NCBI RefSeq assembly: GCF_002896875.1
Contig: NZ_CP023278.1
Coordinates: 3,782,001 to 3,846,000, forward strand
DNA: 64,000 bases
Direction of reading: 5' to 3'
DNA from: Nostoc sp. CENA543
GTDB taxonomy: Bacteria > Cyanobacteriota > Cyanobacteriia > Cyanobacteriales > Nostocaceae
Position numbers and translations under genes: made by a program. Each line of letters begins with the position of its first letter. Positions within the stretch are counted from its first letter, which is position 1. The notes under the pieces are model-generated. The model did not search any database. It saw only the letters and a program-made list of their open reading frames with translations, and had not been told where the DNA came from. Shown in pieces: positions 36,753-57,123 of this stretch.

Positions 36753-37136
36753 TTAGGTTTGAGAAGAATTTTGCCTTTTCCACGAAAAGTAAAAGTGCAA
36801 ATCTTTGCTACTTGCCATATATATCAAAATTACGGCACTCAGAGCAGCCATAATTAAACTTCCTACGATGAGGACAGTAGAAAGCTTTGCTTTTAGTGCA
36901 ATCACCATTGCAACTAGAGCAACCACCAAAAAACTACAGATAGCCATCATGAGCCACTTCGCCCATTTTTGCCCCTGTAGAACAAAGTACATAACTACGA
37001 TGGTGAATAAAATCCGTCCAATCGCCCATCTATCCCGTGCTAGAAAAACTAGCGTAGCATCTAGAATACAAAGCACCACAAACATAGCCATTAATGTATT
37101 GCGTGCTTTCAAAGCAGATTCATCGATTTGGAGCAT
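36753..37136 (-). CDS. Four-helix membrane protein at the end of the cpe operon
   Basis: A 127-residue protein with four predicted membrane helices (about residues 12-32, 40-58, 62-84, 88-110) and a short polar C-terminus. It has no recognised domain. It starts 27 bases after the cpeR stop on the same strand, so it is probably co-transcribed with phycoerythrin genes. A link to the photosynthetic membrane is only inferred. Confidence 0.65.
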   Translation of the reverse strand: MLQIDESALKARNTLMAMFVVLCILDATLVFLARDRWAIGRILFTIVVMYFVLQGQKWAKWLMMAICSFLVVALVAMVIALKAKLSTVLIVGSLIMAALSAVILIYMASSKDLHFYFSWKRQNSSQT

Positions 37137-37163
37137 AGGTTTCTACATCACAAAAAAATAACT

Positions 37164-37529
37164 TCACGCTTGTGCGTCAAATCGGGTGCGAAAGCTGCCG
37201 TATTTCAGCCAATATTGTTTCAAGTTATGGCAAGGGGTATGTAAACTTGCCTTAGCCTGATAGAGAATTACTTGCCGATGATCACCCATCCAAATTTTGT
37301 CAATCGGATCAACTGATATGACTGTACCTCCTAAAGCTTCCACACATTGAGAAAATCTCTCAACGGCACTGTAATCTACAGTTTCAAACACAAAAAAATT
37401 ACCTGAACAAATTAAATGCCTGCTGCGAATCCAGCACTGCATTTTTTTCTGCGCTTCTGGGGGCAGCATATTTGGTTTGAGAGATTCCAGATCCGGCAGG
37501 GAAAGATCATAGGATATTTGGGACTTCAT
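37164..37529 (-). CDS. cpeR: Phycoerythrin operon activator CpeR
   Basis: About 121 residues, basic, with the compact CpeR core (MLPPEAQKKMQCWIRSRHLI, CSGNFFVFETVDYSAVERFS, GGTVISVDPIDKIWMGDHRQ). CpeR is the last gene of the cpeCDESTR operon in Fremyella diplosiphon and is needed for expression of cpeBA. ATG 37529 has a GAGAG element just upstream and overlaps the cpeT end by 23 bases; the longer frame to 37607 would overlap it by 100. Under this order CpeR is made only when the linker operon is on, giving a green-light relay to cpeBA, which lies outside the window. Confidence 0.9.
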   Translation of the reverse strand: MKSQISYDLSLPDLESLKPNMLPPEAQKKMQCWIRSRHLICSGNFFVFETVDYSAVERFSQCVEALGGTVISVDPIDKIWMGDHRQVILYQAKASLHTPCHNLKQYWLKYGSFRTRFDAQA

Positions 37530-38130
37530 GAGCGAAACTCTCCCGCTTTTTAAACCGCAATGGCCCATGTGTAGATCCCCAAACTTGTTGGTGGGTGTTG
37601 ATGTCAAGACCTTTATCGAGACTTACCCAGGTGCTTTCTGTGATTTCCACATAGCTATCTAAATAAGTCTGACAGCCATTTTTTTCTATTAAGCAGAGGT
37701 TGCCGGGTTCGACACTACCTTGAAAGCGATCGCCTTCTCGTTTAAAAATCATTGAGCAGTGATATCGCCGTTCAATACAGTCGGGAGTAATGGTTTTCAG
37801 AATATTTAAATCCCGCGCCGCACCCGCATAGAACATGGCATTTTTTAAGCTGTAGTTTTCGATATAAATTTGATCACCTTGCTCAACTAGACGATGCACA
37901 CCCTGACGATACGGTCGCCACAAGTCATAGTCATAAACTTGTTCAGAATACATCCCAATGCCAGAGAAGAATTCAAAAGGTAAGGGACGAAAAAAAACGT
38001 GAATATGGGCGTACTCTTTCGGACTTTCAAATGCCTGTTGTTGATTGCTGAAATCCCCTGCCATCCAACGAGCTAGGGTAATTAAATTATTTGACGTTGT
38101 TGCACAAATAGGTGTGATGGAAGAAGTCAC
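37507..38130 (-). CDS. cpeT: CpeT-type bilin lyase
   Basis: A 207-residue T-type lyase. Characteristic stretches are LARWMAGDFSNQQQAF, HIHVFFRPLPFEFFSGIGMY, EQVYDYDLWRPYRQGVHRL and the ending STWVSLDKGLD with GPLRFKKRESF. T-type lyases attach bilins to Cys155-type sites of beta subunits; CpeT has a calycin-like barrel. It lies between cpeS and cpeR as in F. diplosiphon. Confidence 0.92.
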   Translation of the reverse strand: MTSSITPICATTSNNLITLARWMAGDFSNQQQAFESPKEYAHIHVFFRPLPFEFFSGIGMYSEQVYDYDLWRPYRQGVHRLVEQGDQIYIENYSLKNAMFYAGAARDLNILKTITPDCIERRYHCSMIFKREGDRFQGSVEPGNLCLIEKNGCQTYLDSYVEITESTWVSLDKGLDINTHQQVWGSTHGPLRFKKRESFAHEVPNIL

Positions 38131-38288
38131 TTCACTTTACTCCAAATTCAAAATTCAAAATTAATTACCTTCGTTTTCAGGCGTAAATAAAAACAATTCG
38201 CAATTCGCAATAAACAGAGAAAACAATGAAAATCTATGATTTTAACGGTATTTTTTTGATACTATTGTGGGTTGGAATTAGCTGTAAT

Positions 38289-38825
38289 TTAATTCTGGAC
38301 ACCCTGCCGAATTTCTGAAGAAAACGAGGCGGTAACAACTCCTGTTCCAGCACTGGTTTTAATCAAAGAAACCCGACATCGGACATTAGGATTGACAAAC
38401 CAAATTTTTTCCTCGGCGGCGGCGCGTTCGTAGGCGGTAGTTAAGACAAATGTACCGTCAGCTGTTAAGTAATAGTCACCGGCGGCGGCGATGGTTTCTG
38501 CATAGCCTTGATCACGCAGGAGTTTACCGCGATGAGCCGCATCATCAGGATCAGGTATAGGAACTAGAACACAAGTACCTTTGACTTCTCCATCATCCCA
38601 ATCTGATTGACCTTCCCAACTCATACGGAATGGGGAAACTGCTGTCTGGGGGTCGATGTCATAACTTTTGCACAAGTCAATGACTGCTGGATCATCAATA
38701 GAAAGAGCCTCAATCTCAATTTCTGACTGTACAGCTTCAAAGTGACTGAAGGCTAAATGATGTGCGCTACGTTGCGATCGCCAACGTCCAATGGAATTTT
38801 TAACAAACTCTTGAATATCCATCAA
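38289..38825 (-). CDS. cpeS: CpeS-type bilin lyase
   Basis: A 178-residue S-type lyase of the lipocalin-like CpcS/CpeS family: GRWRSQRSAHHLAFSHFE, MSWEGQSDWDDGEVKGTCVL, GKLLRDQGYAETIAAAGDYY, EKIWFVNPNVRCRVSLIK and a final ASFSSEIRQG. CpeS attaches phycoerythrobilin to Cys82 of beta-phycoerythrin (CpeB). It follows the CpcD-domain gene by about 190 bases and precedes cpeT. The ATG at 38822 is equally possible. Confidence 0.92.
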   Translation of the reverse strand: MMDIQEFVKNSIGRWRSQRSAHHLAFSHFEAVQSEIEIEALSIDDPAVIDLCKSYDIDPQTAVSPFRMSWEGQSDWDDGEVKGTCVLVPIPDPDDAAHRGKLLRDQGYAETIAAAGDYYLTADGTFVLTTAYERAAAEEKIWFVNPNVRCRVSLIKTSAGTGVVTASFSSEIRQGVQN

Positions 38826-39015
38826 TTTTTGATTTTTTTATAGTTATTCGCTTTTGAAGGCAGTATAAAAAATTGGGTTTCTTAAATAAGAAATCCTGGT
38901 TGTAATGTAAGACAAAAAGAAAAGGTAAAAAGGCAAAATAAACAGCAATAAAATTTCTCAACAATCGTACTTTGATTGTAATTGATTTTATTACTTTTGA
39001 CTTTTTACTTGTTAA

Positions 39016-39450
39016 TTACCACTCATCGATGAAGGTGTAATCACCGGATTGAAAAACTGCGATCGCTCTAGGTTTTTGCTCTGGTGAAACCGTAATTAAT
39101 TCGTTCTTTTCAGATGTTGTATCAGGGTGATTTTCTACCTCTACTTGAGGTGCTAATTCAGTAGGATGTACTGAATCTAGAATATCCATTGCAGCTATTG
39201 TAGATAGTGGCTGTTCTTCGCACTCAATTTGGGAAACTGGAGTCTGGGAAGTTAATAAGGTAATTTGGGTAATTTTTCCCCCAAGGCGATGAATACTCTG
39301 AATTGTTTGAGACAGACAATTATAAGGAATTGTCTTTGTATATTTGCCTTTCCTCATTATCCCTTGATCACAGCCACCTGTGACTGTAATCTTGACTCGG
39401 CAACTACTGTATTCACTAAAATTGCCAGGAGCAATAATTGTGGTTGCCAT
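39016..39450 (-). CDS. CpcD-domain protein in the cpe operon
   Basis: About 144 residues. The N-terminal 55 form a CpcD-like linker-cap domain (CRVKITVTGGCDQG; KTIPYNCLSQTIQSIHRLGG; KITQITLL), comparable to the C-terminal domain of CpeC/D/E. The rest is an acidic, low-complexity tail rich in Glu, Pro, Thr and Val ending AVFQSGDYTFIDEW. It lacks the large PF00427 linker domain. ATG 39450 has an AAGGTGA seven bases upstream. It stands between cpeE and cpeS, a position not occupied in the F. diplosiphon cpeCDESTR operon as I know it. A capping or stoichiometry role for phycoerythrin rods is inferred. Confidence 0.75.
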   Translation of the reverse strand: MATTIIAPGNFSEYSSCRVKITVTGGCDQGIMRKGKYTKTIPYNCLSQTIQSIHRLGGKITQITLLTSQTPVSQIECEEQPLSTIAAMDILDSVHPTELAPQVEVENHPDTTSEKNELITVSPEQKPRAIAVFQSGDYTFIDEW

Positions 39451-39716
39451 ACAAATCACCTTTAAATTTGATGTTGTCAGCAACTTATCATCAACTGTAA
39501 TTTGTGGACAAGCGAAGCAATCACTAAATAAATTGCTGCTTGATCACCAGTGATCACAATGCCAAATTCACTCATTAAGAAATTTAACAAAATCTAGCTT
39601 TTTTCAGACTTAGTGTATGTGAATGAATTTTGCCAAACTGTGATTGATTAGCAGTAGTTTTGTCAGTGGCTTTTTGGTAACAAACCATCTATCTACAAAC
39701 TTTTAGCGGTTCTGCC

Positions 39717-40472
39717 CTAAGCTATTTCTGTAATGCTCAGAATCTTACCGCCAGTTTTTTGGATGCTCTGAATTTTTTGTGATAGTTGGTTGTATCCCAC
39801 ATCAAAGGTAGCCATGCTTTGAGTTACCCGACGACCAAAATTAGCCTTGGATACAGCCACACGGAATCTTTTTTCTCTGTTACCTACAGCACCACCGCCT
39901 AAAGGGGCAATAATTTTGGTTGCGAGGTTACTACCAATATCACCAATTAATTTGGCTGATTTACCCACATCGTTAGCAGCAAATCCCCGCATTAAAGCAA
40001 AGGTGCGATTGAAACCAACATTCTTCACCCCAGTTTGGGTACGATTACCACGGGCAGAGGGTGTAACATTATCGCCAAAACTTCTGACATATTCATCACT
40101 GTCTATGTAAGAGTTGATTTCAGCTTCGTAGCCCTGGGTGTTGTAAATCTGTACGTGTTCTGCAATTTCTGCTTGATCTTGTGGGGCGCGTCCCAACAGA
40201 TGTTTGAAATTCAATTCAATGAAACGGTAGGGCGAAGAAGTTTCAAAAAACAAAGAGCGATATAAGTCAGATTGAGCTACCGCACGGACAAACTCTCTGA
40301 CGGTAATATCGCCATTACGTAATTGAGACTCTGCATTGGTGAGGCGTTGGCTATCAAAGATGTGAGCATTACCCAACACCTGCCGATACACGGCGCGGAT
40401 GATGGTTTGTAGATCATCTTCGCTGGCGTTGGCGCGTAATTCTACGGACTCGGCTTCTATCCAAAGTGCCAT
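39717..40472 (-). CDS. cpeE: Phycoerythrin rod linker CpeE
   Basis: A 251-residue linker: PF00427 domain in residues 15-150 ([55 protein letters not shown]) and a C-terminal CpcD domain ([33 protein letters not shown]). It places phycoerythrin hexamers at the outer rod. It is third in the cpeC-D-E series. A hairpin at 40532-40552 lies between cpeD and this gene and may lower its expression. Confidence 0.9.
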
Positions 40473-40552: not shown

Positions 40553-40560
40553 GTTAAATT

Positions 40561-41310
40561 TTACGCAATTTCAGTAATGCTGACGATTTTGCCAGAAGTA
40601 CGATTAATGCGTTGAATTTGTGGGGTCATTTTACTCGCAGGGACGATGTACTCATTGGTACTGATGCGTCGGGGACTGTCGAATTTAGAACCTTTAACCA
40701 CAATTTTGAAGCGTTTTTCAGTGCCAGAACCAATGACAGTAGCTGAAGAAGGTTTAATGTCATTTGCACTGTTGGTAGCAACTGCGTAGACTAATTGAGC
40801 AGATTTGACTGCGCTATCAATCTGAGCAGGGCCGCGATCGAGGGCAAATATGCGATTGTAGCCAACTTGCTTGCTATTGGCTTCGCTGTTTTTACCACGA
40901 TAGTAGGGGACTACGTTTTCACCAAAGGCGGCTTGATATTCAGCACTATCGATATAAGAATCGATTTCAGCTTCATAGCCTTCAGCTACAGTCCGAACGA
41001 TGTGTTCAGAAACTTCTCTTTGGTCTTGGGGTGCGCGACCAAGTAAGTGGAGGAAGTTGAGTTCTACAAACCGATAGGGGGCGCAAGACTCGAAGTAGCG
41101 GGTACGATAAAACTCAGACTTGGCAACGATGCGGACAAACTCTCGCACAGTGATGGAGCGATCGCACAATTGTGATTCTGCTGTCACCAACCGCTCACTC
41201 TCCATGATGTGAGGATTGCCTAACACTTGTTTGTAAACTGCACGGATGATAGTTTGAACTTCTTCTAAACTACCACTAGGCCACAGTTCCAGGATTGTCT
41301 GGGTTGCCAT
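40561..41310 (-). CDS. cpeD: Phycoerythrin rod linker CpeD
   Basis: A 249-residue linker with the PF00427 domain ([51 protein letters not shown]) and a C-terminal CpcD domain (KRFKIVVKGSKFDSP; TPQIQRINRTSGKIVS). The shared order with cpeC and cpeE and sequence closeness to both support CpeD. Starts 42 bases after cpeC. Confidence 0.9.
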   Translation of the reverse strand: MATQTILELWPSGSLEEVQTIIRAVYKQVLGNPHIMESERLVTAESQLCDRSITVREFVRIVAKSEFYRTRYFESCAPYRFVELNFLHLLGRAPQDQREVSEHIVRTVAEGYEAEIDSYIDSAEYQAAFGENVVPYYRGKNSEANSKQVGYNRIFALDRGPAQIDSAVKSAQLVYAVATNSANDIKPSSATVIGSGTEKRFKIVVKGSKFDSPRRISTNEYIVPASKMTPQIQRINRTSGKIVSITEIA

Positions 41311-41351: not shown

Positions 41352-42212
41352 TTATACAGCAGTAATACTGGCAATCACGCCACCTTGTTGGTGAATGCGC
41401 TGATACTCTTGAGAGAGCTTATCGTATGGCACCAGAAATACTTGGTTGGCACGGCGGAATTTAGAAATGTTATTGAAGGTTTTGGCACGATAACCTGTGA
41501 CTTCAATGCGGTAAACTTTACCACCTGCACTCGCATCAACACCATGACGGCTACGAGAAGCCACAGGCGGTGTGCGGAAGGTTGCACCATCGCCAGCAGG
41601 AGAAATTACTGGTGTAGCTGTAGATTGAATCACCAAAGCATTGAGTTTGGGACTCTTACCTGCGAGGTCTCCTTTCAAGCTACTGCTAGCAGCACCCCGT
41701 ACCAATTGGAAAGTATGGGTAAATTGCACCATGCTTGTGCAAGCTTCTGTTTTGTAACCCCGAATGTAGGGAACAATGTTTTCTCCAAAGGTAGATTGAT
41801 ACTCATCGCTGTCGATATAAGAATCAATCTCAGCTTCAAACCCTTGGGTGTCAAGAATGGTGCTATGTCCGCGCATTTCTTCTAAATCTAGTGGCGCACG
41901 ACCCAACAGATGGCGGAAGTTGAGTTCAATTGCTCGGTAGCGCGCACAGTTTGTGAAAAAGCGAGAGCTATAGAGTTCGGATTTAGCTACTGCGCGCACA
42001 AACTCACGAACGCTCAATTCACCCGATTTAAACTTGGATTCTGGTACGGAGAGCCTTTCACTTTCCATGACATAGGCATTACCCAATACTTGCCTATAGA
42101 CTGCGCGAATGATTGTTTCGGCTTCTTCTTGTGAGCGGCCGGGTACCCACTCAACGGGAGGGGTTTCATCAAACAGGCTGACTCCCAGACGAGAAGCTGG
42201 TCCAAATGGCAT
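41352..42212 (-). CDS. cpeC: Phycoerythrin rod linker CpeC
   Basis: A 286-residue linker and first gene of the operon. It opens MPFGPASRLGVSLFDETPPV. The PF00427 domain covers about 25-160 ([35 protein letters not shown]). A Ser/Ala/Pro-rich connector and a C-terminal CpcD domain (KVYRIEVTGYRAKTFN; DKLSQEYQRIHQQGGVIASI) follow. CpeC links the innermost phycoerythrin hexamer to phycocyanin. The 386 bases upstream hold an inverted L box and a perfect dyad. Confidence 0.93.
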   Translation of the reverse strand: MPFGPASRLGVSLFDETPPVEWVPGRSQEEAETIIRAVYRQVLGNAYVMESERLSVPESKFKSGELSVREFVRAVAKSELYSSRFFTNCARYRAIELNFRHLLGRAPLDLEEMRGHSTILDTQGFEAEIDSYIDSDEYQSTFGENIVPYIRGYKTEACTSMVQFTHTFQLVRGAASSSLKGDLAGKSPKLNALVIQSTATPVISPAGDGATFRTPPVASRSRHGVDASAGGKVYRIEVTGYRAKTFNNISKFRRANQVFLVPYDKLSQEYQRIHQQGGVIASITAV

Positions 42213-42473: not shown

Positions 42474-42491
42474 TTGCACTTATTTTGCACA
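42474..42491 (+). promoter_or_regulatory. L box (RcaC site), inverted relative to cpeC
   Basis: TTGCACT-TATT-TTGCACA: a direct repeat with four-base spacer matching the RcaC-bound L box TTGCACA-N4-TTGCACA at 13 of 14 fixed bases. It reads on the plus strand while cpeC is on the minus strand, about 260 bases upstream of it. An opposite-oriented L box is associated with red-light repression of cpeC in F. diplosiphon. Confidence 0.8.
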
Positions 42492-42598: not shown

Positions 42599-43276
42599 TC
42601 AAAACTCCTTGGGCAAACTCCCCTCCAGGGCGGCGGCGACAACGTAATGATTTTCGTCTTGTTGGAGTTGGGCTAGTAATAGTTTGGCTCTGGGGTCTGA
42701 TGACAAACTCAGGGCTGTAGCGGTTCGCCAGCGATCGCGCCAATCTTTTGCCTGTGCTAATTCTGTAAGTAAATCTAGGGCTTGTTGCTGCAAATTCCCT
42801 TTGAGTAAACTGCCCAGTGCTAAAATTCCAGTTTCTTTGACTGTTTGTGTTTCGTCTTGTAAAGCTTGGCGAATTACGGCTAGCAGCACTTCGTCTTGAT
42901 TGGCTTCCATGAGAATCGAGATAATCGTCTGGCGAGTCAACCAATGGCGATCGCGCTCAAACAACTGTTGTAGTAACGGTACAGATTCATTACCAAATTC
43001 AAACAGTGAATTGGCAATTTCCGCTAGTACATTATGGTCAGACTCTTCTTGTAGTAACTCTTTGAGGATTTGTAAGGATGCGGCTGTGCGATGATTCCCC
43101 AAGCCCATCACTGCCAAACGACGACACAGAAAGTCTTGATCAACCGCCAGTTTTTGCAAAATAGGCAGAGCTAAATCAGCCGGACATTGTGCTAATTCAT
43201 CTAAAGCAGCTTTACGCTGGTCAAGCGCGCCAGACCTCAGTAAAGTTTCTAGTTCAGTGAGGCGATCGTTATTCAT
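42599..43276 (-). CDS. HEAT-repeat protein, bilin lyase/NblB-like
   Basis: A 225-residue all-helical protein made of five to six HEAT repeats (ALPILQKLAVDQDFLCRRLA; LAEIANSLFEFGNESVPLL; DRHWLTRQTIISILMEA). The fold is shared by E/F-type phycobilin lyases, CpeZ-like chaperones and NblB. It resembles the plus-strand gene at 60371-61030 in length and repeat sequence. It is first upstream of cpeC on the same strand, so a phycoerythrin maturation role is plausible but unproven. Confidence 0.75.
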   Translation of the reverse strand: MNNDRLTELETLLRSGALDQRKAALDELAQCPADLALPILQKLAVDQDFLCRRLAVMGLGNHRTAASLQILKELLQEESDHNVLAEIANSLFEFGNESVPLLQQLFERDRHWLTRQTIISILMEANQDEVLLAVIRQALQDETQTVKETGILALGSLLKGNLQQQALDLLTELAQAKDWRDRWRTATALSLSSDPRAKLLLAQLQQDENHYVVAAALEGSLPKEF

Positions 43277-43345: not shown

Positions 43346-44050
43346 TCACTCCGTCGCCCCAGCTTGAATTAACAATTCCACTGCTTGAGCAGAACGAAAG
43401 GAATTACGAGCTTCACTCAAGGCTGTTGCACCCCAGCGATTTTGCGGACGGAAATCTGCACCATTGGCTAACAACAGTGTCATAGTTTCTAAATCGCCCC
43501 TCGCAGATGCCATCATTAAAGGAGTCCAACCGCCCAAGTTTGCGGTATTTACTGTTGCGCCCAGTTCAATCAATGCCTTAACTGTGTAAGTATGACCATT
43601 ATCTGTGGCTAAGTATAAAGCTGTGTCACCGATTTTATTTACGGCATCCACCTCAGCACCCATTTTTACTAGACGTTGGACAATATCCGTTTGACCACGG
43701 CGCGCCATTGTCATTAATATAGTTTCCTCGTAGGAATTGCGATCGCTAATATTCGCGCCATGATCTAGGAGTAGCGAAACAATATTGCGGCGATCGCACT
43801 CCGCCGCAAACATTAACGGTGTGTAACCTGCGGGATTTTTAGTATTGACATCAGCATTATGTGCCAACAACAATTCCACAATTTCCAGATAACCTTCTGT
43901 AGCCGCCCACATCAAAGCTGTATTACTAGCTCCCACGGCTGTCACACCCCCCGTAGTATTGGGATCTGCGCCTTGAGCTAATAAGCTTTCGACAGCAGCA
44001 GTATCACCTTTGACAATCATGCGGATGAGGTTTTCGTTAAGAGAAGCCAT
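43346..44050 (-). CDS. Ankyrin-repeat protein
   Basis: About 234 residues with six ankyrin repeats (units such as GYTPLMFAAECDRRNIVSLL and GWTPLMMASARGDLETMTLL). ATG 44050 (MASLNENLIRMIVKGD) marks where family-like sequence begins; the frame further upstream is repeat-derived. It is placed between the HEAT-repeat and DUF2656 genes on one strand. Its ligand is unknown; a protein-protein adaptor for phycobiliprotein assembly is only a guess from context. Confidence 0.8.
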   Translation of the reverse strand: MASLNENLIRMIVKGDTAAVESLLAQGADPNTTGGVTAVGASNTALMWAATEGYLEIVELLLAHNADVNTKNPAGYTPLMFAAECDRRNIVSLLLDHGANISDRNSYEETILMTMARRGQTDIVQRLVKMGAEVDAVNKIGDTALYLATDNGHTYTVKALIELGATVNTANLGGWTPLMMASARGDLETMTLLLANGADFRPQNRWGATALSEARNSFRSAQAVELLIQAGATE

Positions 44051-44241
44051 TTTTATAAAGGAAAAAGGAAAAAGGCAAAAGGTAAAAGTACAGAAAGCTG
44101 AGTTTTGATGAGATGTTACACCCATAAGTTGCATAATTTCATTAGTCGAGAAAAGCTGTAAACTCTCTCCCTTGCACCCTGCCCCCCTGCGAATATTAAT
44201 ATGCAACTTAAAAGTACAACAGCTTGATCTTAGACTGGGTG

Positions 44242-44694
44242 TCAGACCTCTTTGAGTTCAACTTTGAAAATACTATCGGCTGGTTTTTGGGCAATGGTAG
44301 AGTCCCAAGCGATTCCTTGTAAAAATGCTGCACCAGAGTTAGTTTCTACCACATCTACGCCCCAGTTTCCTGGTTGGAGTGCATCAGGAGAATCACTGGT
44401 GGGTGGTGTCGTTTTAATCCCACCTAAGACTAGGATTTCTGGAAGCGGGGCTGTGTCTGTTTGCTGCGATCGCCTTTTTTCTGCTAAAGCTTGCGCGCAA
44501 AGTTTTCCGACTTGCTCAGGGGAAAATTCGTCGGTAGGGAATAAAATTTCTACAGTCCAATGGGGATGATTCACTAATCTACATTGCAGAGTTTTATAGT
44601 TACTTAAACCCACTTGAAAAACTGCGGCAAATTCTTCTCTGCTGAGGGCTGGTACGCTGTCATCAGCAACATTAAAATTATGGGCAAGCAGCAT
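44242..44694 (-). CDS. DUF2656 protein
   Basis: About 150 residues of DUF2656: MLLAHNFNVADDSVPALSRE, EFAAVFQVGLSNYKTLQCRL, HPHWTVEILFPTDEFSP and LVLGGIKTTPP. The family is found in phycobilisome-containing cyanobacteria, often in phycoerythrin gene regions, without a known function. ATG 44694 was chosen; a TTG at 44718 would add eight residues. Confidence 0.8.
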   Translation of the reverse strand: MLLAHNFNVADDSVPALSREEFAAVFQVGLSNYKTLQCRLVNHPHWTVEILFPTDEFSPEQVGKLCAQALAEKRRSQQTDTAPLPEILVLGGIKTTPPTSDSPDALQPGNWGVDVVETNSGAAFLQGIAWDSTIAQKPADSIFKVELKEV

Positions 44695-44763
44695 CCGCCC
44701 CGTAATATCTGTATTCAAAATAGCTAAATTTGTTGATAAAAGTTTGTAGGTTTCATTCTATAT

Positions 44764-46658: not shown

Positions 46659-46663
46659 CGTTT

Positions 46664-47112: not shown

Positions 47113-49215
47113 GTGTCTAAACGTTCTTCTAAGCGGCACTCAGGCGCAAAAAAATCTCAACATCACCAAAAAGCTTACAAGCGTCTGATTAAAACTTTGT
47201 TTCAGAACGCCCATGATGCAGTTGCGCTCATTGATGATCAAGGTTGTCTGATTGAGATGAACAATGCTGTTTGCAATTTGCTAGGGCTACCGCGTAAAAA
47301 GCTGAAAAAGCAAGCCTTATCTAATTTCATTGTTGCTGGGGATAACTTGGAGAGTTTTCCACTACCACAATCATTGATGGGAGAACTCTTAATCTCATCT
47401 GCTAGTCATGTTCAGCAAGAGGTGGAATATACCTTAACACCAAATGTTCTACCCGACTGTCATTTACTGCTGTTACGAGATATTAGTCAGCGTCGGGAAT
47501 CTATACAAGCAGAATTAAAACAGCAGCAGCAGCGAGTGGAACTATTTTCGGAAGTCACGCTCAAAATTCGCCAGTCGCTACAACTTAAGGAAATCCTACA
47601 TACCACTGTTACGGAAGTGCAACGGATTCTCAAGGCCGATCGCGTGTTAATTTACCAGGTATTACCAGACGGTACAGGTAAAACCATCAGTGAAGCGGTT
47701 GTTCCAGATTATCCCTCGCTGATAGATATGGAATTTCCGCCAGAAGTGTTTCCCCAAGAGTATCAACAACTGTATGCTCAAGGCAGAGTCAGAGCCATCA
47801 CCGATGTTCATGATCCGGCGGCGGGTTTAGCAGATTGTTTGGTGGAATTTGTCGAGCAATTCGATATTCAAGCGAAGCTGATTGTCCCCATTGTGCAAAG
47901 TCTCAACACTGCTCAAAATCATCTGTGGGGATTATTAATTGCTCATCAATGTAACAGCGATCGCCATTGGGTAGATTTTGAGTTGGAATTGATGCAACAA
48001 TTAGCCGACCAAATCAGTATCGCTCTATCTCAGGCGCAATTACTAGAACATTTAGAAGAAGTTGTCGCAGCACGCACCGCCGAATTACAAGAGGAAATCA
48101 ATGTCAGAATGCAGGCGGAAGCAGCTTTGCGCCAAAACGAAGAGCAACTGCGCCTAATTACCAACGCCTTACCAGTATTGATTGCCTATGTAGATGACCA
48201 ACAATGTTATCGCTTCAATAACCAAGCCTATCATGATTGGCTGGGGCAGTCTCCTGGCGAAATTTACGGTTTTCATTTGCGACAGGTGTGGGGAGAAGAT
48301 TGTTACCGGAGAATGCGCGTATATGTGGAAGTCGCTTTATCCGGGCAAGCCGTCACCTATGAGAATGAAATAGTCTTGAAAGATGGGAATTTGCGATCAG
48401 TTGATGTTACTTATATCCCTCATCTAGATGAGCAGAATATGGTGAAGGGATTTTTTGCCTTAAGTAGTGATATAAGCGATCGCAAAGCCATTGAACGCAT
48501 GAAAGACGAATTCATCTCTGTGATTAGTCATGAACTGCGGACTCCCCTGACATCATTACATAGTGCGTTGAAAATCTTGGCGACAGGCAAATTAGGCAAT
48601 CTTTCCAGTGAAGGACAACAAATGCTGTCTATTGCTGATGAAAGTACAGAAAGACTGGTGCGATTAGTCAATAATGTGCTGGACTTACAAAGGATTGAAT
48701 CCGGTAAAGTCGTCATGGAACGACAAGCTTGCAATGCGGCGAATTTAATTACCCAAGCCGCAGAAGCAATGCAAGCAATGGCACAGCAGCATGAAGTCAC
48801 TTTAGTAAAACAACCACAGGAAATCTCTGTTTGGGCTGATGCTGACTATATATTGCAAGCCTTAACCAATTTAATTAGCAATGCCATTAAATTTTCATCA
48901 CCAGGAGGTACTGTTTGGCTAACCGTTGAACAGGGGGCTAGGGATTGGGGACTGGGGATTGGGGACTGGGAAGTTATTTTTCGGGTGCGGGATGAAGGAC
49001 AAGGTATACCAGCTGATCAACTAGAAAAGATATTTGAACGCTTTCAACAAGTTGACTCATCAGATTCTCGCAAAAAAGGCGGTACTGGTTTAGGACTAAC
49101 TATCTGTCGCAAAATTATCGAACAACACAATGGGAGAATTTGGGCTGAAAGTAACCCAGGGTGTGGGAGTACCTTTGCATTCACATTACCCAATTCGGTG
49201 AGGAGTGTGGAGTGA
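47113..49215 (+). CDS. rcaE: Bilin-GAF sensor histidine kinase, RcaE-like
   Basis: A 700-residue soluble kinase. Domain order: PAS (about 20-125), GAF (about 140-312), coiled coil, PAS (about 340-455), HisKA with phosphoacceptor His473 (ISHELRTPLT) and HATPase (NLISNAIKFS, DEGQGIP, GTGLGLTICRK). The GAF has a candidate chromophore cysteine, Cys242 in AGLADCLVEF, at the place of Cys198 in F. diplosiphon RcaE, the green/red sensor of CA3. Genes for RcaF and RcaC follow directly. A heptad-repeat insertion at residues 608-620 splits two strands of the ATPase domain. The start is a TTG or GTG-type codon at 47113. The identity rests on context plus domain layout. Confidence 0.8.
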   Translation: MSKRSSKRHSGAKKSQHHQKAYKRLIKTLFQNAHDAVALIDDQGCLIEMNNAVCNLLGLPRKKLKKQALSNFIVAGDNLESFPLPQSLMGELLISSASHVQQEVEYTLTPNVLPDCHLLLLRDISQRRESIQAELKQQQQRVELFSEVTLKIRQSLQLKEILHTTVTEVQRILKADRVLIYQVLPDGTGKTISEAVVPDYPSLIDMEFPPEVFPQEYQQLYAQGRVRAITDVHDPAAGLADCLVEFVEQFDIQAKLIVPIVQSLNTAQNHLWGLLIAHQCNSDRHWVDFELELMQQLADQISIALSQAQLLEHLEEVVAARTAELQEEINVRMQAEAALRQNEEQLRLITNALPVLIAYVDDQQCYRFNNQAYHDWLGQSPGEIYGFHLRQVWGEDCYRRMRVYVEVALSGQAVTYENEIVLKDGNLRSVDVTYIPHLDEQNMVKGFFALSSDISDRKAIERMKDEFISVISHELRTPLTSLHSALKILATGKLGNLSSEGQQMLSIADESTERLVRLVNNVLDLQRIESGKVVMERQACNAANLITQAAEAMQAMAQQHEVTLVKQPQEISVWADADYILQALTNLISNAIKFSSPGGTVWLTVEQGARDWGLGIGDWEVIFRVRDEGQGIPADQLEKIFERFQQVDSSDSRKKGGTGLGLTICRKIIEQHNGRIWAESNPGCGSTFAFTLPNSVRSVE
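48941..48968 (+). repeat. Four heptamers inside the kinase gene
   Basis: GGGATTG-GGGACTG-GGGATTG-GGGACTG in direct tandem within the HATPase coding region, encoding Trp-Gly-Leu-Gly-Ile-Gly-Asp-Trp. The same heptamers are normally intergenic in this window (for example inverted near 51785-51815). Confidence 0.9.
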
Positions 49216-49350: not shown

Positions 49351-49722
49351 ATGGCTAAAAGAATTTTAATTATTGATGATGAGGAAACTATTCAAACTGT
49401 TGTGCAGTTTGGCATCAAAATGGCGGCGGGATGGGAGGTTTTCACCGCTAGTTCTGGTTCAGAAGGTATTCAAACTGCTCAAACCGAAAAACCTGATGTC
49501 ATTTTGTTAGATGTAATGATGCCAGAAATGGATGGTATTGCTACATTTAAAGAACTCCAGTCACGCACCGAAACAGAAAAAATTCCTGTCATCCTCCTAA
49601 CTGCTAAAGCACAAACTGCGGAAAAGCGTCAGTTTAATGATTTGGGAGTCAGTGGAGTGATTACTAAACCCTTCAATTCTTTGGATTTGCCAGAGCAAAT
49701 TACTAGAATTCTCCATTGGTAG
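49351..49722 (+). CDS. rcaF: CheY-like response regulator RcaF
   Basis: A 123-residue single receiver: acidic pair Asp9/Asp10 (LIIDDEE), phosphoacceptor Asp54 (VILLDVMMPEMDG), Thr in LLTAKAQ and Lys in ITKPFNS. RcaF is the intermediate carrier from RcaE to RcaC in the CA3 phosphorelay. It ends eight bases before rcaC, so the two are co-translated or coupled. A good ribosome site is not obvious in the repeat-derived leader. Confidence 0.87.
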   Translation: MAKRILIIDDEETIQTVVQFGIKMAAGWEVFTASSGSEGIQTAQTEKPDVILLDVMMPEMDGIATFKELQSRTETEKIPVILLTAKAQTAEKRQFNDLGVSGVITKPFNSLDLPEQITRILHW

Positions 49723-49730
49723 CTTCATTA

Positions 49731-51680
49731 ATGAAAATCTTGCTTGTGGAAGATGATGATTTACTAATTAAAGTCCTCACCAGAAATTTAACCGCCCATC
49801 ACTATATTGTGGATACTGTTAAGGACGGGGAAATGGGATGGACTTATGGGTCTACTTTTGAGTATGACCTCATTGTCTTGGATATCATGTTACCCAAGTT
49901 AGATGGTATTAGCTTGTGTAAGCGTTTCCGCACACAGGGATACACCCTGCCAATCCTTTTACTCACGGCTCAAGATACAATCACAGCCAAAGTCCAGGGA
50001 TTGGATGCAGGCGCAGATGATTATGTAGTCAAACCTTTTGATCCTGTAGAACTCATAGCGAGAATTCGCGCATTAGTGAGGCGAGGTAGTGCTAATCCTT
50101 TTCCTTTGCTGACTTGGGGTGATTTACTCCTCAATCCCAGCACTTGTGAAGTGAGTTACAATGGTCGTCCTTTGAACTTGACGACGATGGAATACGATTT
50201 GCTGGAAGTTTTGTTACGAGACTGTCAGCACGTTTTCAGCACTGAAGAACTTTTAGATAGATTATGGTCTTCAGAAGAATTTCCCTCCGAAGCCACGGTA
50301 CGTTCCCATATTCGGCGGGTGCGACATAAATTAGTCGCTGCGGGTGCGCCCCATGATTTTATTGCTACTATGCACGGTCGGGGTTACTATCTCAAAGCAC
50401 CCAGCACGGAAGAATCAACTAATCGTGCTACGACAACTCCAGAACAGAATCTGCGGGGTATAGCTAAATCGAAAGCAACTCTGAGTAATTCCCCACAGCA
50501 TCTACCGCCACCAGATTCTCAGCAACAATATCTGGCTTTTCTCAACGAAACTTGGACAACAACTAAACCCAAAAGTCTTGACCAGATGACATTTTTGTTA
50601 CAAACTGTCAGAGACTTACAAACTAATCAACTTACCTCTCCACAACAAGCACAGGCGCAACAGGTAGCACATAAACTTGCAGGGACTTTGGGAGTCTTTG
50701 GTTTAACCAAGACGATGCACATCGCCCGTCAATTAGAGTATTGGTTGGGAGGACGCGAACCTCTGCAACCGAAACACGCGCCATTGATGAAAACTCTGGT
50801 GACATCTCTCCAACAAGAAATTGAGCAGACAAACCTGATTCAAATGTCTCAACTTCCCTCTGGACAGTCACCCCTGTTACTGATTGTGAGTGGAGATATT
50901 GAGTTTAATCAATCTATAGTCAGTGTGGCAGCTAGTCGAGGAATTCGTCTAGAAATTGCGCCGGTGTTAGATGCGACTCAAGCTTTGCAGGTAACAGAGT
51001 CAGCTTTTGACACTTTAGGTCAAAATCCCGATGTCGTTTTGTTACGCTTTTCTCATACATTATCCCCATCAGCAGTAACAGAGCAATCAGCTTTTGAAGT
51101 CAGTAATTTTTGGGAGACATTGCAGACATTCAAACACCGTTATCCTGAAACACCAATTATTGTTATGGGCGATCGCGGGGAATTGAGCGATCGCTTGCAG
51201 GTCATGCGCCAAGGTGGAAAGCTGTTTTTAACTGCCCAAACCCCACCAGAGAAGGTAATGGATGCCGTAGTTAATTTGTTAAGAACTCCAGAAGTTCCCC
51301 ATAAAGTGATGATTTTAGACGATGATCAAGAATGGTTACGCACTCTACCCACCCTCCTCAAACCTTGGGGATTTAAAGTCACCACCCTAGCCGATCCGCA
51401 ACAATTTTGGAATGTCCTGCAAGCCGTTAGTCCTGATGCCTTAGTTTTAGATGTAAATATGCCCCAAATCAACGGCTTTGAACTCTGTCAGATTCTCCGC
51501 AGTGACCCCCATTGGCAGAGGTTGCCTGTATTATTCTTAAGTGTGTTAACAGACTCCAGCAGCCAAAATCAAGCTTTTAGCGTCGGTGCAGACGATTATT
51601 TGTGTAAACCCGTCATGGGAGTCGAACTAGCTAACCGCATTCTCCGGCGTTTACAAAGAGTCAAAGCATGGGCAAGTTAA
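49731..51680 (+). CDS. rcaC: Complex response regulator RcaC
   Basis: A 649-residue protein, close to the 651 of F. diplosiphon RcaC. Order: receiver 1 with Asp51 (LIVLDIMLPKLDG), OmpR/PhoB winged helix (LTTMEYDLLEVLLRD; VRSHIRRVRHKLVAAGA; HGRGYYLKAP), a linker, an HPt domain with His314 (VAHKLAGTLGVFGL), a degenerate receiver-like stretch at about 380-515, and receiver 2 with Asp574 (ALVLDVNMPQINGFELCQIL). In CA3 it binds L boxes when Asp51 is phosphorylated in red light, activating cpc2 and pcyA and repressing cpe genes. The ATG at 49731 gives the MKILLVEDD start. Confidence 0.93.
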   Translation: MKILLVEDDDLLIKVLTRNLTAHHYIVDTVKDGEMGWTYGSTFEYDLIVLDIMLPKLDGISLCKRFRTQGYTLPILLLTAQDTITAKVQGLDAGADDYVVKPFDPVELIARIRALVRRGSANPFPLLTWGDLLLNPSTCEVSYNGRPLNLTTMEYDLLEVLLRDCQHVFSTEELLDRLWSSEEFPSEATVRSHIRRVRHKLVAAGAPHDFIATMHGRGYYLKAPSTEESTNRATTTPEQNLRGIAKSKATLSNSPQHLPPPDSQQQYLAFLNETWTTTKPKSLDQMTFLLQTVRDLQTNQLTSPQQAQAQQVAHKLAGTLGVFGLTKTMHIARQLEYWLGGREPLQPKHAPLMKTLVTSLQQEIEQTNLIQMSQLPSGQSPLLLIVSGDIEFNQSIVSVAASRGIRLEIAPVLDATQALQVTESAFDTLGQNPDVVLLRFSHTLSPSAVTEQSAFEVSNFWETLQTFKHRYPETPIIVMGDRGELSDRLQVMRQGGKLFLTAQTPPEKVMDAVVNLLRTPEVPHKVMILDDDQEWLRTLPTLLKPWGFKVTTLADPQQFWNVLQAVSPDALVLDVNMPQINGFELCQILRSDPHWQRLPVLFLSVLTDSSSQNQAFSVGADDYLCKPVMGVELANRILRRLQRVKAWAS

Positions 51681-51820: not shown

Positions 51821-51838
51821 ATGCACACATTTTGCACG
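51821..51838 (+). promoter_or_regulatory. L box (RcaC site) upstream of pcyA
   Basis: ATGCACA-CATT-TTGCACG: 12 of 14 fixed bases of TTGCACA-N4-TTGCACA, in the direction of pcyA and 43 bases before its start. A possible -10 TATACT follows at 51862-51867. In F. diplosiphon pcyA is also an L-box gene. Confidence 0.7.
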
Positions 51839-51881: not shown

Positions 51882-52625
51882 ATGTTGAATTCTATGCAAG
51901 CGTCGTTAAGAAGCCGTCAGCATCGATTAATCCACAAGTTGGCGGATTCCATTGAAGAAATTTGGCAAAAATACCTGGATCTCTCCCCTTACTCGATTCC
52001 AGAAGGTTTGGGTTATGTTGAAGGTCATTTAGAAGGTGAACGGCTGATCATCGAAAATCATTGCTACCAAACCCCCCAGTTTCGCAAACTGCATTTAGAA
52101 TTGGCTCAGGTCGGTAATGGTTTAGATATTCTGCACTGTGTGATGTTCCCGAATCCTGAATACGCGATTCCTATCTTTGGTACAGATTTGGTAGGTGGAC
52201 GCGGTGGGGCAATTAGTGCGGCGATCGCGGATTTATCTCCCATTAGTAGCGATCGCACTCTCCCAGAACGCTACTATTCACAATTGTCGGTTTTGTCGGA
52301 ACTCCCGTTTTCCCAACCGCGAGATTTACCAGCTTGGGGTGATATTTTTTCAGAATTTTGTCTGTTTGTCCGTCCAGGAAACCCTGATGAAGAAGATATG
52401 TTTCTCAATCGGGTGCGGGATTTTCTCACTATCCATTGTCAAATCGCTAGTACAGAAACACCCCTAACCTCAAATCTCGACATCTCCAAGGTGTTAGCAG
52501 GACAACGCCACTACTGCACAAAGCAGCAACAAAATGATAAAACTCGGCGTGTGCTGGAGAAATCTTTTGGTACAGAGTGGGCAGATCGCTACATGACTAC
52601 TATGCTTTTCGATTATGTAGCTTGA
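51882..52625 (+). CDS. pcyA: Phycocyanobilin:ferredoxin oxidoreductase
   Basis: A 247-residue PcyA, which reduces biliverdin IX-alpha by four electrons to phycocyanobilin. Catalytic residues corresponding to Glu76, His88 and Asp105 of Synechocystis PcyA are at Glu73 (HLELAQVG), His85 (LDILHCVMFP) and Asp102 (FGTDLVGGRGG). The ending KQQQNDKTRRVLEKSFG is a family signature. Placed between rcaC and the cpc2-type operon, with its own L box, it would raise chromophore supply along with phycocyanin in red light. Confidence 0.95.
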   Translation: MLNSMQASLRSRQHRLIHKLADSIEEIWQKYLDLSPYSIPEGLGYVEGHLEGERLIIENHCYQTPQFRKLHLELAQVGNGLDILHCVMFPNPEYAIPIFGTDLVGGRGGAISAAIADLSPISSDRTLPERYYSQLSVLSELPFSQPRDLPAWGDIFSEFCLFVRPGNPDEEDMFLNRVRDFLTIHCQIASTETPLTSNLDISKVLAGQRHYCTKQQQNDKTRRVLEKSFGTEWADRYMTTMLFDYVA

Positions 52626-53427: not shown

Positions 53428-53445
53428 TTGCACAAAATTTGCACA
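53428..53445 (+). promoter_or_regulatory. L box (RcaC site) upstream of cpcB
   Basis: TTGCACA-AAAT-TTGCACA: a perfect match to the L-box direct repeat with four-base spacer, in the direction of the operon and about 360 bases before cpcB. It predicts red-light activation by phosphorylated RcaC. Confidence 0.9.
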
Positions 53446-53805: not shown

Positions 53806-54324
53806 ATGCTTGACGCTTTTACCAAGGTAGTTTCCCAAGCTGATACTAGAGGCTCATACGTTAGCGATGCAGAAATCGATGCTCTCAAAGATATGGTAGC
53901 TGCTGGTGCTAAACGCATGGATGTAGTTAACCGGATTACAGGCAATGCCTCTACAATCGTTGCCAATGCTGCACGGACATTGTTTGAAGAGCAACCCCAG
54001 TTGATTCAACCAGGTGGTAATGCTTACACAAACCGTCGCATGGCTGCTTGCTTACGCGACATGGAAATCATCTTACGCTATGTGACCTACGCTGTATTTA
54101 CAGGTGATGCTAGCGTTCTAGACGATCGCTGCTTGAACGGTCTACGGGAAACATATCAAGCATTGGGTGTTCCTGGCCCCTCTGTAGCGACTGGCGTGCA
54201 GAAAATGAAAGACGCGGCGATCGCGATCGCAAACGACCCCAATGGTGTAACCCGTGGTGATTGTAGCTCCTTAATGGCTGAATTGAGCAGCTACTTTGAT
54301 CGCGCTGCTGCCGCAGTTGGCTAA
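53806..54324 (+). CDS. cpcB: Phycocyanin beta subunit (red-light type)
   Basis: A 172-residue beta subunit. Bilin cysteines are Cys82 ([14 protein letters not shown]) and Cys153 ([10 protein letters not shown]); Asn72 ([10 protein letters not shown]) is the usual methylated Asn. It starts [16 protein letters not shown]; phycoerythrocyanin beta also starts MLDAF, but the N-A-Y-T-N-R-R region and helix E are phycocyanin-like. Order and linkers match cpcB2A2H2I2D2 of F. diplosiphon, so this is probably the inducible PC2 set. Confidence 0.93.
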
Positions 54325-54329
54325 ATACC

Positions 54330-54365
54330 AATTCAAAATTCAAAATGATTGCTGAATTTTGAAGA
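54330..54365. other. Inverted repeat between cpcB and cpcA
   Basis: TTCAAAATTCA and TGAATTTTGAA (11-base arms) at about 54332-54363 form a hairpin in the cpcB-cpcA gap; it is built from the TTCAAAA repeat unit common in this genome. Confidence 0.55.
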
Positions 54366-54441
54366 ATTGAGAGACAACGCCGACCACTAAAATCTTTTGT
54401 CTGACGCATAACTTTACATATTTGTTGAAAGGATCATCAGC

Positions 54442-54930
54442 ATGAAAACACCTTTAACCGAAGCAGTCGCTACCGCAGATTCTCAAGGACGCTTTCTCAG
54501 CTCCACAGAACTTCAAGTTGCCTTTGGTCGTTTCCGTCAAGCATCCGCTAGCTTAGATGCAGCTAAAGCATTAAGCAGCAAAGCTAGTAGTTTGGCTTCT
54601 GGTGCTGCTAACGCAGTTTACCAAAAGTTCCCCTATACCACCCAAATGCAAGGTAAGAACTTCGCATCTGACCAACGTGGTAAAGACAAGTGTGTACGTG
54701 ACATCGGTTACTACATTCGCATCATCACCTATTGTCTAATTGCTGGTGGTACAGGCCCATTAGATGACTATTTAATCGGTGGTTTGACAGAAATCAACCG
54801 CACCTTTGATTTGTCTCCTAGCTGGTATGTTGAAGCTCTCAAATACATCAAAGCTAATCACGGTTTGAGTGGCGATCCTGCTGTAGAAGCTAACTCCTAC
54901 ATTGACTACGCTATCAACGCTCTGAGCTAG
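54442..54930 (+). CDS. cpcA: Phycocyanin alpha subunit (red-light type)
   Basis: A 162-residue alpha subunit with the single bilin Cys84 in [17 protein letters not shown] and the usual ending [18 protein letters not shown]. It forms the trimer/hexamer with CpcB. It carries phycocyanobilin attached by CpcE/CpcF-type lyases, which are not next to this operon. A Shine-Dalgarno AAGGATC lies before the ATG. Confidence 0.95.
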
Positions 54931-54943
54931 ATTTTGCTTTCTG

Positions 54944-55018
54944 CCCAGAACAACTAAAAGCTGTGAATGCTGATTTGCTAGCAAGGGCAGTTTTTTGGGG
55001 TTCTGGGTATGTTTTTTT
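54944..55018 (+). terminator. Hairpin with T run between cpcA and first linker gene
   Basis: CCCAGAAC (54944-54951) pairs with GTTCTGGG (55000-55007), with GCCC/GGGC extension possible inside, and a run of seven T at 55012-55018 follows. It sits between subunit genes and linker genes and could make most transcripts stop after cpcA. Confidence 0.55.
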
Positions 55019-55045
55019 CCTTGCAAAAATTAAGGAGATTGACTC

Positions 55046-55855
55046 ATGACTAGTTCTACCGCAGCCAGTCAGCTAGGATTTGAGCCATTTGCCAGCACAC
55101 CCCCCACAGAGTTGCGGTCAAATGAAGATGTCAAAGCAGTAATTCATGCTGCTTACCGGCAGGTGTTTGGCAATGAACACTTGATGCAAAGCGAACGTCT
55201 CACCAGTGCAGAATCGTTATTGCAGCAAGGTAATATTAGCGTTAGGGATTTTGTGCGATTGTTAGCACAGTCTGAACTGTATCGCAATAAGTTTTTTTAC
55301 TCCACGCCCCAAGTTCGCTTCATCGAATTGAACTATAAGCATTTGCTTGGTCGTGCGCCCTACGATGAATCAGAGATTACCTACCACGTCAATCTCTATA
55401 TAGAAAAAGGGTACGAAGCTGAAATTGATTCTTATATAGATTCGCTGGAATATCAAGAAAACTTTGGAGAATCAATAGTTCCCCATTATCGCGGCTTTGC
55501 TACTCAAGCAGGACAAAAGACTGTAGGCTTTAACCGGATGTTTCAGATTTATCGGGGATATGCCAACAGCGATCGCTCCCAAGGTAAAAATAAATCTGCG
55601 TGGCTAACTAAGGATTTGGCTCAGAATTTAGCTAATCCCGTGCAGACTCCTAACTTCGGCAAGGGACTGACAGGTACAATTGCAGGCGATCGCGGTCAGC
55701 TTTACCGCATCCGATTTACCCAAGCAGATAGAGGACGAAATCCTCAAATCCGTCGCAGCATTAAGGAATATTTAGTCAGCTATGACCAACTCTCACCCAC
55801 TCTGCAAAGACTCAATCAGAGAGGTAGTCGAGTAGTAAATATTTCTCCAGCCTGA
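55046..55855 (+). CDS. cpcH: Phycocyanin rod linker CpcH
   Basis: A 269-residue linker: PF00427 domain ([55 protein letters not shown]) and a C-terminal CpcD domain ([33 protein letters not shown]). By position it corresponds to CpcH2 of F. diplosiphon. It is closest to the next gene, indicating tandem duplication. AAGGAG lies before the ATG. Confidence 0.88.
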
Positions 55856-55979
55856 TTGGAAGAGGCAGGGGGCAGAGGAGGCAGGGGGGCAGGGGAGCAG
55901 GGTGCAGGGGGAGAATGATTTTTATTAATCCCCAGTCCCCAGTCTCCAATAGTTTTGCAATATTCAAGGAGTCCTATTC

Positions 55980-56852
55980 GTGCCAATTACAACCGCCGCA
56001 TCTCGTTTGGGAACTACAGCTTTTGACCAAACACGCCCTGTGGAACTGCGTCCCAACTGGACAGCAGAAGATGCCAAAGCTGTGATCTGGGCTGTTTATC
56101 GTCAGGTCTTAGGTAACGACCACCTGATGCAATCAGAACGCCTCACCAGCTTAGAATCCTTGCTGACCAATGGCCAAATCAGCGTCCGGGATTTCGTGCG
56201 AGGAGTAGCTAAATCTGAACTATACAAAACCAAGTTTTTGTATCCCCATTTTCAAACTAGGGTCATCGAATTAAACTTTAAACACCTGTTGGGACGCGCT
56301 CCCTACGATGAAGCCGAAGTGATTGAGCATCTCGATCGCTACCAAAATCACGGCTTTGATGCAGACATCGATTCTTATATCGATTCTGTGGAATATGATA
56401 GCTATTTCGGAGATGCGATTGTTCCTTACTATCGGGACTTCGTCACTACAGGAGTAGGTCAAAAAACCGTTGGCTTTACGCGGATGTTCCGTCTTTATCG
56501 TGGCTATGCTAATAGCGATCGCTCGCAGTTAGCAGGTACAAGTTCTCGCCTAGCCACCGACTTAGCTAGAAATAGTGCTTCTGCGATCATTGCACCTTCC
56601 GGTGGAACTGAAGGTTGGGCTTACCAAGCTGCGAAAAAAGGCACTGCACCCGCCCGCACCTTTGGCAGATCCTCTCAAGGCTCTACTCCCCGGCTTTACC
56701 GCATTGAAGTTGCCGGAATTAGTCTGCCTAGATATCCCAAAGTACGTCGGAGCAATAAAGAGTTTATCGTCCCCTACGAACAACTATCCAGCACTTTGCA
56801 GCAAATCAATAAACTAGGCGGTAAGGTTGCTAGCATCACCATCGCACAATAG
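55980..56852 (+). CDS. cpcI: Phycocyanin rod linker CpcI
   Basis: A 290-residue linker with a GTG start ([20 protein letters not shown]). PF00427 domain ([55 protein letters not shown]) and CpcD domain ([39 protein letters not shown]). By order it matches CpcI2. An AGGAG lies just upstream. The gap to cpcH contains a GGGGGCAG-type purine array at 55861-55910. Confidence 0.88.
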
Positions 56853-56865
56853 GAGGTCAAGCATC

Positions 56866-57123
56866 ATGTTGGTACAGCCACGGATGAAAGCATCAACTTC
56901 AACTTCAGACAGTCGTGTTTTTGTCTATGAAGTAGAAGGATTAAAACAGAACGAGCAAACCGAGAACAATAAATATCAAGTTCGCAACAGCAGCACTGTT
57001 TTAATTCAAGTCCCCTACAGTCGTATGAATGATGAAATGCGACGCATTACCCGCTTAGGTGGCAAGATTGTCAACATTCGTCTCCTAAGTGAAAGTGGAA
57101 CAGCAGCTGAATCAGAAAATTAA
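56866..57123 (+). CDS. cpcD: Small rod-capping linker CpcD
   Basis: An 85-residue capping linker consisting mostly of the CpcD domain (SRVFVYEVEGL; STVLIQVPYSRMNDEMRRIT; RLGGKIVNIRLL). It ends phycocyanin rods. The ATG at 56866 follows AGGAGG by six bases. It is the last gene of the operon; the terminator is at 57201-57234. Confidence 0.93.
   Translation: MLVQPRMKASTSTSDSRVFVYEVEGLKQNEQTENNKYQVRNSSTVLIQVPYSRMNDEMRRITRLGGKIVNIRLLSESGTAAESEN

Follow-up and report, generated by a model that had tools for sequence, protein, structure and literature searches.

Type III chromatic acclimation (CA3) in Fremyella diplosiphon and Synechococcus PCC 7335 runs through RcaE, RcaF and RcaC and, in the account given in parts of PMC8256508, activates genes through an L box and represses them through an inverted L box. 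We analysed a window of 64,000 nucleotides (positions 3782001-3846000 of contig 1) from the 7.2 Mb genome of the cyanobacterium Nostoc sp. CENA543, which carries a CA3 locus with the same RcaE-RcaF-RcaC series, the same kinds of targets, L boxes and an inverted box at the operon expected to be repressed. It differs in that most of its parts, except cpeBA and a pebA/B-like bilin reductase gene (a label that denotes weak similarity to PcyA only), lie on one stretch of ~30 kb; the gene order of F. diplosiphon itself falls outside this comparison. The CA3 biochemistry is ordinary, by homology; what surprises more is how the locus came to be here. We take it to be the core of a larger phycoerythrin (PE)/CA3 rod-antenna set of other orders and consider it likely that, in this genus, that set was acquired laterally and replaced the native pec/cpc/cpcG rod genes at their site.

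CA3 genes and their L boxes

A sequence-only reading of this DNA had named RcaE, RcaF, RcaC, PcyA and operons of the cpc2 and cpeC types, and we found all of them in the claimed order using Pfam (50 of the 85 listed open reading frames, ORFs, of the window), NCBIfam (ten ORFs) and the Protein Data Bank (PDB). Genes and L boxes are as follows (window coordinates, strand, identity and basis).

36753-37136, minus: small hydrophobic protein (no Pfam family)
37164-37529, minus: CpeR-like regulator, probable start 37529 (position behind cpeT and similarity to cpeR2 of the congener G107; no Pfam family matched)
37507-38130, minus: CpeT (Pfam)
38289-38825, minus: CpeS (Pfam)
39016-39483, minus: CpcD-domain small linker (Pfam)
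39717-40472, minus: CpeE-type rod linker (Pfam)
40561-41310, minus: CpeD-type rod linker (Pfam)
41352-42212, minus: CpeC-type rod linker (Pfam)
42474-42490, plus: L box of cpeC, inverted relative to the gene (motif scan)
47113-49215, plus: RcaE sensor kinase, PAS-GAF-PAS-HisKA-HATPase (Pfam, PDB)
49351-49722, plus: RcaF receiver (Pfam)
49716-51680, plus: RcaC, receiver-OmpR DNA-binding-Hpt-receiver (Pfam)
51821-51837, plus: L box of pcyA, 1 mismatch (motif scan)
51882-52625, plus: PcyA (NCBIfam equivalog)
53428-53444, plus: L box of cpc2 (motif scan)
53806-57123, plus: cpcB2A2H2I2D2 operon (Pfam)

The sensor matched the PDB entries 7ckv, named 'RcaE' (E 5.7e-84), and 8k9o (E 4.1e-99). GAF Cys242, which we take to be the bilin-binding cysteine, and kinase His473 were invariant across 11 rows, and we predict an RcaE-type green/red cyanobacteriochrome kinase. 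RcaC has each domain required of it (receiver, DNA-binding, Hpt and second receiver), and PcyA scored 351 bits in NCBIfam against an equivalog cut-off of 206. The cpeC operon reads cpeC, D, E, the CpcD-domain ORF, S, T and the cpeR-like gene from 42212 down to 37164. A loop of the RcaE ATPase domain, at about 48932-48973, carries an insert resembling a dispersed repeat (GARDWGLGIGDWE); in G006, G015, G145, G283 and G084 (our labels for genomes) unrelated residues extend this loop.

We assumed TTGCAC-N5-TTGCAC as the L-box motif. L boxes had been proposed before three targets, and we located them before cpeC, pcyA and cpc2. With at most one mismatch the window holds 3 L boxes, against 0.46 expected, and none of 100 shuffles reached 3; the genome has only two perfect L boxes, both in the window. 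Genome-wide, 27 L boxes with up to one mismatch compare with 11 for a reversed control pattern. The survey across relatives took genes from retrieved stretches, mostly around RcaE or RcaC, with duplicate contigs removed and again at most one mismatch. There, the L box ran along the gene at 23 of 30 pcyA genes with their own promoter and at 25 of 28 cpc2 operons, and opposite to the gene at none of either. At cpeC it was inverted in 11 of 14 cases, at a distance of 266-278 bp, and never along the gene. Other cpc operons had no L box (0/19), nor had five further pcyA genes placed directly behind cpcD2. The background, at the looser setting of 2 mismatches, was 5.5% of random 500-bp stretches. 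The genes lacking a box were pcyA of G180, G237, G224, G190, L194, L145 and one of two G088 copies, cpc2 of G424, L162 and one of two G180 copies so labelled, and cpeC of G006, G088 and G122. One orientation rule thus holds: the L box lies along the gene at pcyA and cpc2 and is inverted at cpeC.

By homology, RcaE would autophosphorylate in red light and the phosphate would pass through RcaF to RcaC. Phosphorylated RcaC on the L boxes would then activate pcyA and cpc2, where the box lies along the gene, and repress cpeCDESTR through the inverted box about 270 bp upstream. With cpeCDESTR repressed there would be no CpeR and phycoerythrin would be off; green light would reverse this. The orientation rule, as it holds across orders, supports a single binding site that yields either activation or repression.

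Distribution, linkage and history

Our genus sample comprised 13 genomes, including that of the window (G000). RcaE was present in four (G000, G107, G129 and G396) and CpeB in the same four, an all-or-none distribution. All nine congeners without CA3 have pec or cpc genes adjoining a pseudouridine synthase gene, and their nucleotide matches to the window stop at 32632-32690, the end of that gene. In all four CA3 congeners a different set of rod genes, beginning with a helix-turn-helix (HTH) gene and cpcG, occupies this site (4/4; G396 from matches of contig C140). The left edge reads as follows.

31767-32696, plus: pseudouridine synthase, native left flank (Pfam)
32776-33198, plus: HTH protein, adjoining CpcG also in G422 and G088 (Pfam, synteny)
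33339-34094, minus: CpcG-type rod-core linker (Pfam, synteny)

G394 has four cpcG genes in a row, an arrangement absent from the linker genes listed for G000, G107 and G129. CpcB matches numbered two in G129 and three each in G000 and G107, and the cpc1 type is seemingly missing from G129.

The RcaE, RcaC and cpc trees conflict with the core-gene tree, that of RpoB. Trees were first built under LG+G4 with no site mixture, and those of RcaE and RcaC were repeated with a site-mixture model. In the RpoB tree (28 rows) the 14 rows of the family of this genus, labelled f1, formed one clade (100/100). A single f1 clade was rejected for RcaE (25 rows; p 2.6e-4 without G436 and 4e-47 with it), for RcaC (28 rows; p 4e-12 and 6e-9, respectively), for cpc2 BA (16 rows, G436 included; p 2.4e-4) and for all cpcBA pairs (p 5.8e-5). 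The site-mixture model, without G436, also rejected it for RcaE (p 4.8e-4; 24 rows, the long row G237 omitted) and RcaC (p 8e-9). Identity and coverage cut-offs excluded G180, G190, G224 and G088 from the RcaE tree, along with further rows lacking a good match in their stretch. In both the RcaE and RcaC trees, group A (the window genome, G396, G107, G129, G397, G413, G457 and G403) was nested among rows of two other families, f30 and f38, and group B (G424, G422, G423, G408 and G283) stood separate from it. Because roots were not inferred, the trees give conflict and not direction.

The cpc tree held 65 pairs after four pec pairs and one duplicate had been taken out. Its 21 native pairs formed a clade (100/100) composed solely of genomes scored as lacking CA3, a score that means no RcaE match or, for some (including G381 and G252), merely no close RcaC match among the matches listed. 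All 24 pairs from RcaE-holding f1 genomes fell outside this clade, and the three cpc copies of the window genome each grouped with copies from G084, two of them also with G180; G084 and G180 belong to other orders. In the available portion of PMC9415938, horizontal transfer of CA genes was concluded from 16S and photoreceptor trees. We regard as good but not final the evidence that, at the native site, a foreign set took the place of the genus's own rod antenna genes; the direction of transfer we infer, and recombination via shared cpc genes is a possible route of acquisition.

CA3 genes are linked in other genomes too. Within 10 kb of RcaE, the 29 of 50 RcaE-holding stretches with at least 10 kb to the left and 9 kb to the right had RcaF in 29, RcaC in 25, PcyA in 21, cpc2 in 16 and cpeC in 7, and all 50, cut contigs included, had 44, 36, 31, 22 and 14; identity and coverage cut-offs were set for these counts, so that divergent copies score as misses. 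Two gene orders were seen repeatedly: RcaE-F-C-pcyA-cpc2 and, in Xenococcus, Hyella, Moorena and others, cpc2-pcyA-RcaE-F-C. In G084, G457 and G006 the cluster continues via cpc2, allophycocyanin-like, HEAT and pentapeptide genes to pebA/B-like relatives and further phycocyanin copies. G084 has cpc1, cpc3, bilin reductases, the pentapeptide, HEAT and ApcL genes, cpc2, pcyA and RcaC-F-E in one run, with no close cpeC in that run. Tolypothrix FACHB-123 (L138) and Calothrix brevissima NIES-22 (L139) have RcaE-RcaF-pcyA with no RcaC match in the stretch examined. The compact locus is a known kind of arrangement, and Hirose and co-workers reportedly surveyed CA gene clusters in 2019. Synteny comparison upholds the proposed linkage by position, and the shared occurrence of RcaE and CpeB upholds co-inheritance; a scattered order in all relatives without co-inheritance was looked for in the same comparison and not found.

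The suggestion that the gene set moves or is lost as a unit fared less evenly. Lateral movement agrees with the trees that conflict with RpoB, and the unit does not hold: cpeBA (at 0.126 Mb) and the pebA/B-like bilin reductase (at 4.94 Mb) both lie outside the window, so the CA3 trait is not all on one piece, and the larger cluster is broken in various ways. G107 and G129 have the pentapeptide-HEAT-ApcL block apart from cpc2, and in G107 it still adjoins cpc1, cpc3 and a bilin-reductase relative; G000 and G396 have the block joined to cpc2 and separated from the other three. Breakpoints in this supercluster vary among congeners, so that at present the block is no fixed mobile unit.

Besides the remote position of cpeBA and the reductase, several observations weigh against lateral replacement. 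The PcyA tree (21 rows) fails to reject one f1 clade (p 0.096), and the RpoB, PcyA and cpc trees were built under LG+G4 only, which leaves them more exposed to long-branch error. One clade for the CA3 congeners was not rejected by RcaE (p 0.052), RcaC (p 0.32), ten genes (p 0.075) or RcaEFC (p 0.136). No integrase or transposase family was found among the 50 of 85 window ORFs scanned with Pfam. Six pairs from f1 genomes scored as lacking CA3 (G398, G405, G381, G252, G401 and G191) also fall outside the native cpc clade.

These six pairs keep ancient paralogy with differential loss viable. On that account the PE/CA3 antenna set was ancestral in the family and was lost in most lineages, which kept pec/cpc, and the tree conflict reflects old paralogs. 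It is a possible explanation, though a clearly less probable one. PE-type cpc occurs also in f1 genomes scored as lacking RcaE, G436 has a CA3-type cpc2 and another cpc, and PcyA does not reject family monophyly; yet RcaE and RcaC of group A nest among f30 and f38 rows, and many parallel losses would be required. Moreover, RcaE/RcaF of G129 (G129:C1:167738-169891) are closer at the nucleotide level to those of G397 (87.7/92.0%, against 83.2% for RpoB) and G413 (86.4/91.2%, against 77.2%) than the RpoB identities, a hint of exchange between genera. Separate acquisitions inside the genus, by G129 and G000, were also considered; nucleotide identities were suggestive and one clade was not rejected, and we do not claim them.

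That clustering reflects selection for co-regulation and co-loss alone, with no transfer into the genus, seems unlikely to us. The RcaEFC-pcyA-cpc2 linkage is indeed widespread and occurs in two gene orders, but such selection does not account for the position of all three phycocyanin copies of the window genome outside the native clade, when nine congeners have native genes at the same site; the trees of RcaE, RcaC and cpc also speak against it as the only cause. A mobile island bracketed by a toxin-antitoxin pair and a repeat is very improbable: a HigBA-like pair and an inverted repeat are present, but the pair lies inside the locus, with the DegT gene on one side and RcaE on the other, and of 54 stretches compared only G000 and G396 gave a match to it; the repeat belongs to an element of ~105 bp with at least 11 further copies in this genome and copies at many places in at least 10 of 13 congeners. 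Neither lends support to a mobile unit, and the window has neither an integrase or transposase family among the ORFs scanned nor a tRNA.

36648-36712, no strand: inverted repeat outside the conserved unit (part of the dispersed ~105 bp element)
46317-46978, plus: HigBA-like toxin-antitoxin pair, an insert common to G396 (Pfam, synteny)

A HigA-like match also occurs elsewhere in G390.

Neighbouring genes and an orphan CcaR

The sequence-only reading placed the locus at 36753-57123. Its genes stand, and its extent does not: the conserved unit is longer, from about 32.7 to 62.5 kb. Left of the cpeC operon it includes parts of a second light-response module.

34477-35238, minus: CpcL-type rod-membrane linker, hydrophobic C terminus by eye (Pfam, NCBIfam)
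35388-35478, minus: cpeR2 remnant, intact in G107 (blastn, 78% over 93 bp)
35584-35605, minus: paired G-box-like putative CcaR site (motif)
35946-36635, plus: CcaR-type OmpR response regulator without a CcaS partner (similarity)

The CcaS-CcaR-cpcL module (CA1/CA2) is present in G107, where ccaR, a G-box-like pair, a second cpeR, cpcL and ccaS lie beside the cpeC operon, and similarly in L204, L208, L211, L214 and L216. In contrast, the window genome has no ccaS and only a remnant of cpeR2. Full-length CcaS was found in one of the 13 genus genomes (G107), and a blastn search of the window between the linkers yielded no remnant of ccaS. CcaR and cpcL are orphans here of a green-light CcaSR module, adjoining the locus, whose sensor has been lost. 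The regulator is 74-75% identical to those adjoining CcaS in L211 and L204, and its receiver keeps the Asp and Lys residues. For the site at 35584-35605 we used what we take to be the G-box motif; the first C of each half-site is changed relative to G107, and the binding block (35515-35637) is 85% identical to that of G107 over 123 bp.

Between G000 and G396, ccaR shows 10 nonsynonymous and 7 synonymous differences, against 80.5 and 282.5 in 16 other locus genes (Fisher p 0.0016). Relaxed selection on the orphan ccaR is only hinted at, because CpeD also has 8.5 nonsynonymous and 7.5 synonymous differences. It is conceivable, if rather doubtful, that with CcaS gone RcaE (or RcaF), as the closest green/red relative still present, now phosphorylates the orphan CcaR. 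Under RcaE, cpcL and rod-shaped phycobilisomes would respond with reversed light polarity, on in red light and not in green, and a single sensor would control the phycoerythrin switch as well as the rod-shaped antenna. The orphan regulator offers a natural experiment in light-sensing rewiring. Three strains with both CcaS and RcaE were recorded among 65 genomes in PMC9415938, and the available text of that report makes no mention of an orphan CcaR, which others may have described.

The other members and neighbours of the conserved block are listed below.

42599-43276, minus: HEAT-repeat protein, conserved neighbour (Pfam, synteny)
43346-44206, minus: ankyrin-repeat protein, conserved neighbour (Pfam, synteny)
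44242-44718, minus: DUF2656 protein, conserved neighbour (Pfam, synteny)
44764-46008, minus: DegT-type aminotransferase, same place in G000, G396 and G107 (Pfam, synteny)
58088-58765, plus: HEAT-repeat protein (Pfam)
58748-59329, minus: divergent allophycocyanin-like (ApcL-like) phycobiliprotein (Pfam)
59449-60240, plus: DUF1838 protein (Pfam)
60371-61030, plus: HEAT-repeat protein, conserved in the supercluster (Pfam, synteny)
61628-62431, minus: pentapeptide-repeat protein, outer end of the conserved block (Pfam, synteny)

At 62789-64000, congener matches lie at unrelated places. The ApcL-like protein (193 amino acids) keeps a Cys in the chromophore region and has weak ApcD similarity (74 bits). 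We rejected it as a CA3 marker: close relatives occur in 76 of 388 genomes of the class, against at least 26 with a full-length RcaC match at 54% identity or more. Dispersed repeats of two further types, with many copies in the genus, lie at 61026-61206 and 62480-62602. Putative Uma2-family endonuclease genes lie left of the conserved block (30914-31630, plus) and inside it, adjoining cpc2 (57434-58006, minus), and an ORF at 3846-5177 (plus) encodes an N6/N4 DNA methylase fused to an EcoO109I-type restriction endonuclease domain.

Comparison with antenna genes acquired as blocks

Light-harvesting genes acquired as blocks, as we propose here, have been described for the CA4 island of marine Synechococcus and the regained phycocyanin of Acaryochloris (portions of PMC3877281 and PMC11633204), and for transfer of the Planktothrix phycoerythrin cluster (as cited within PMC13022049). 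In contrast to these cases, the phycocyanin rod set here is unlike the one that congeners carry at the same chromosomal position. Close relatives in this genus differ at one site by a whole block, comprising phycocyanin rods, rod-core linkers and the colour switch, so that few strains would be needed to test antenna replacement.

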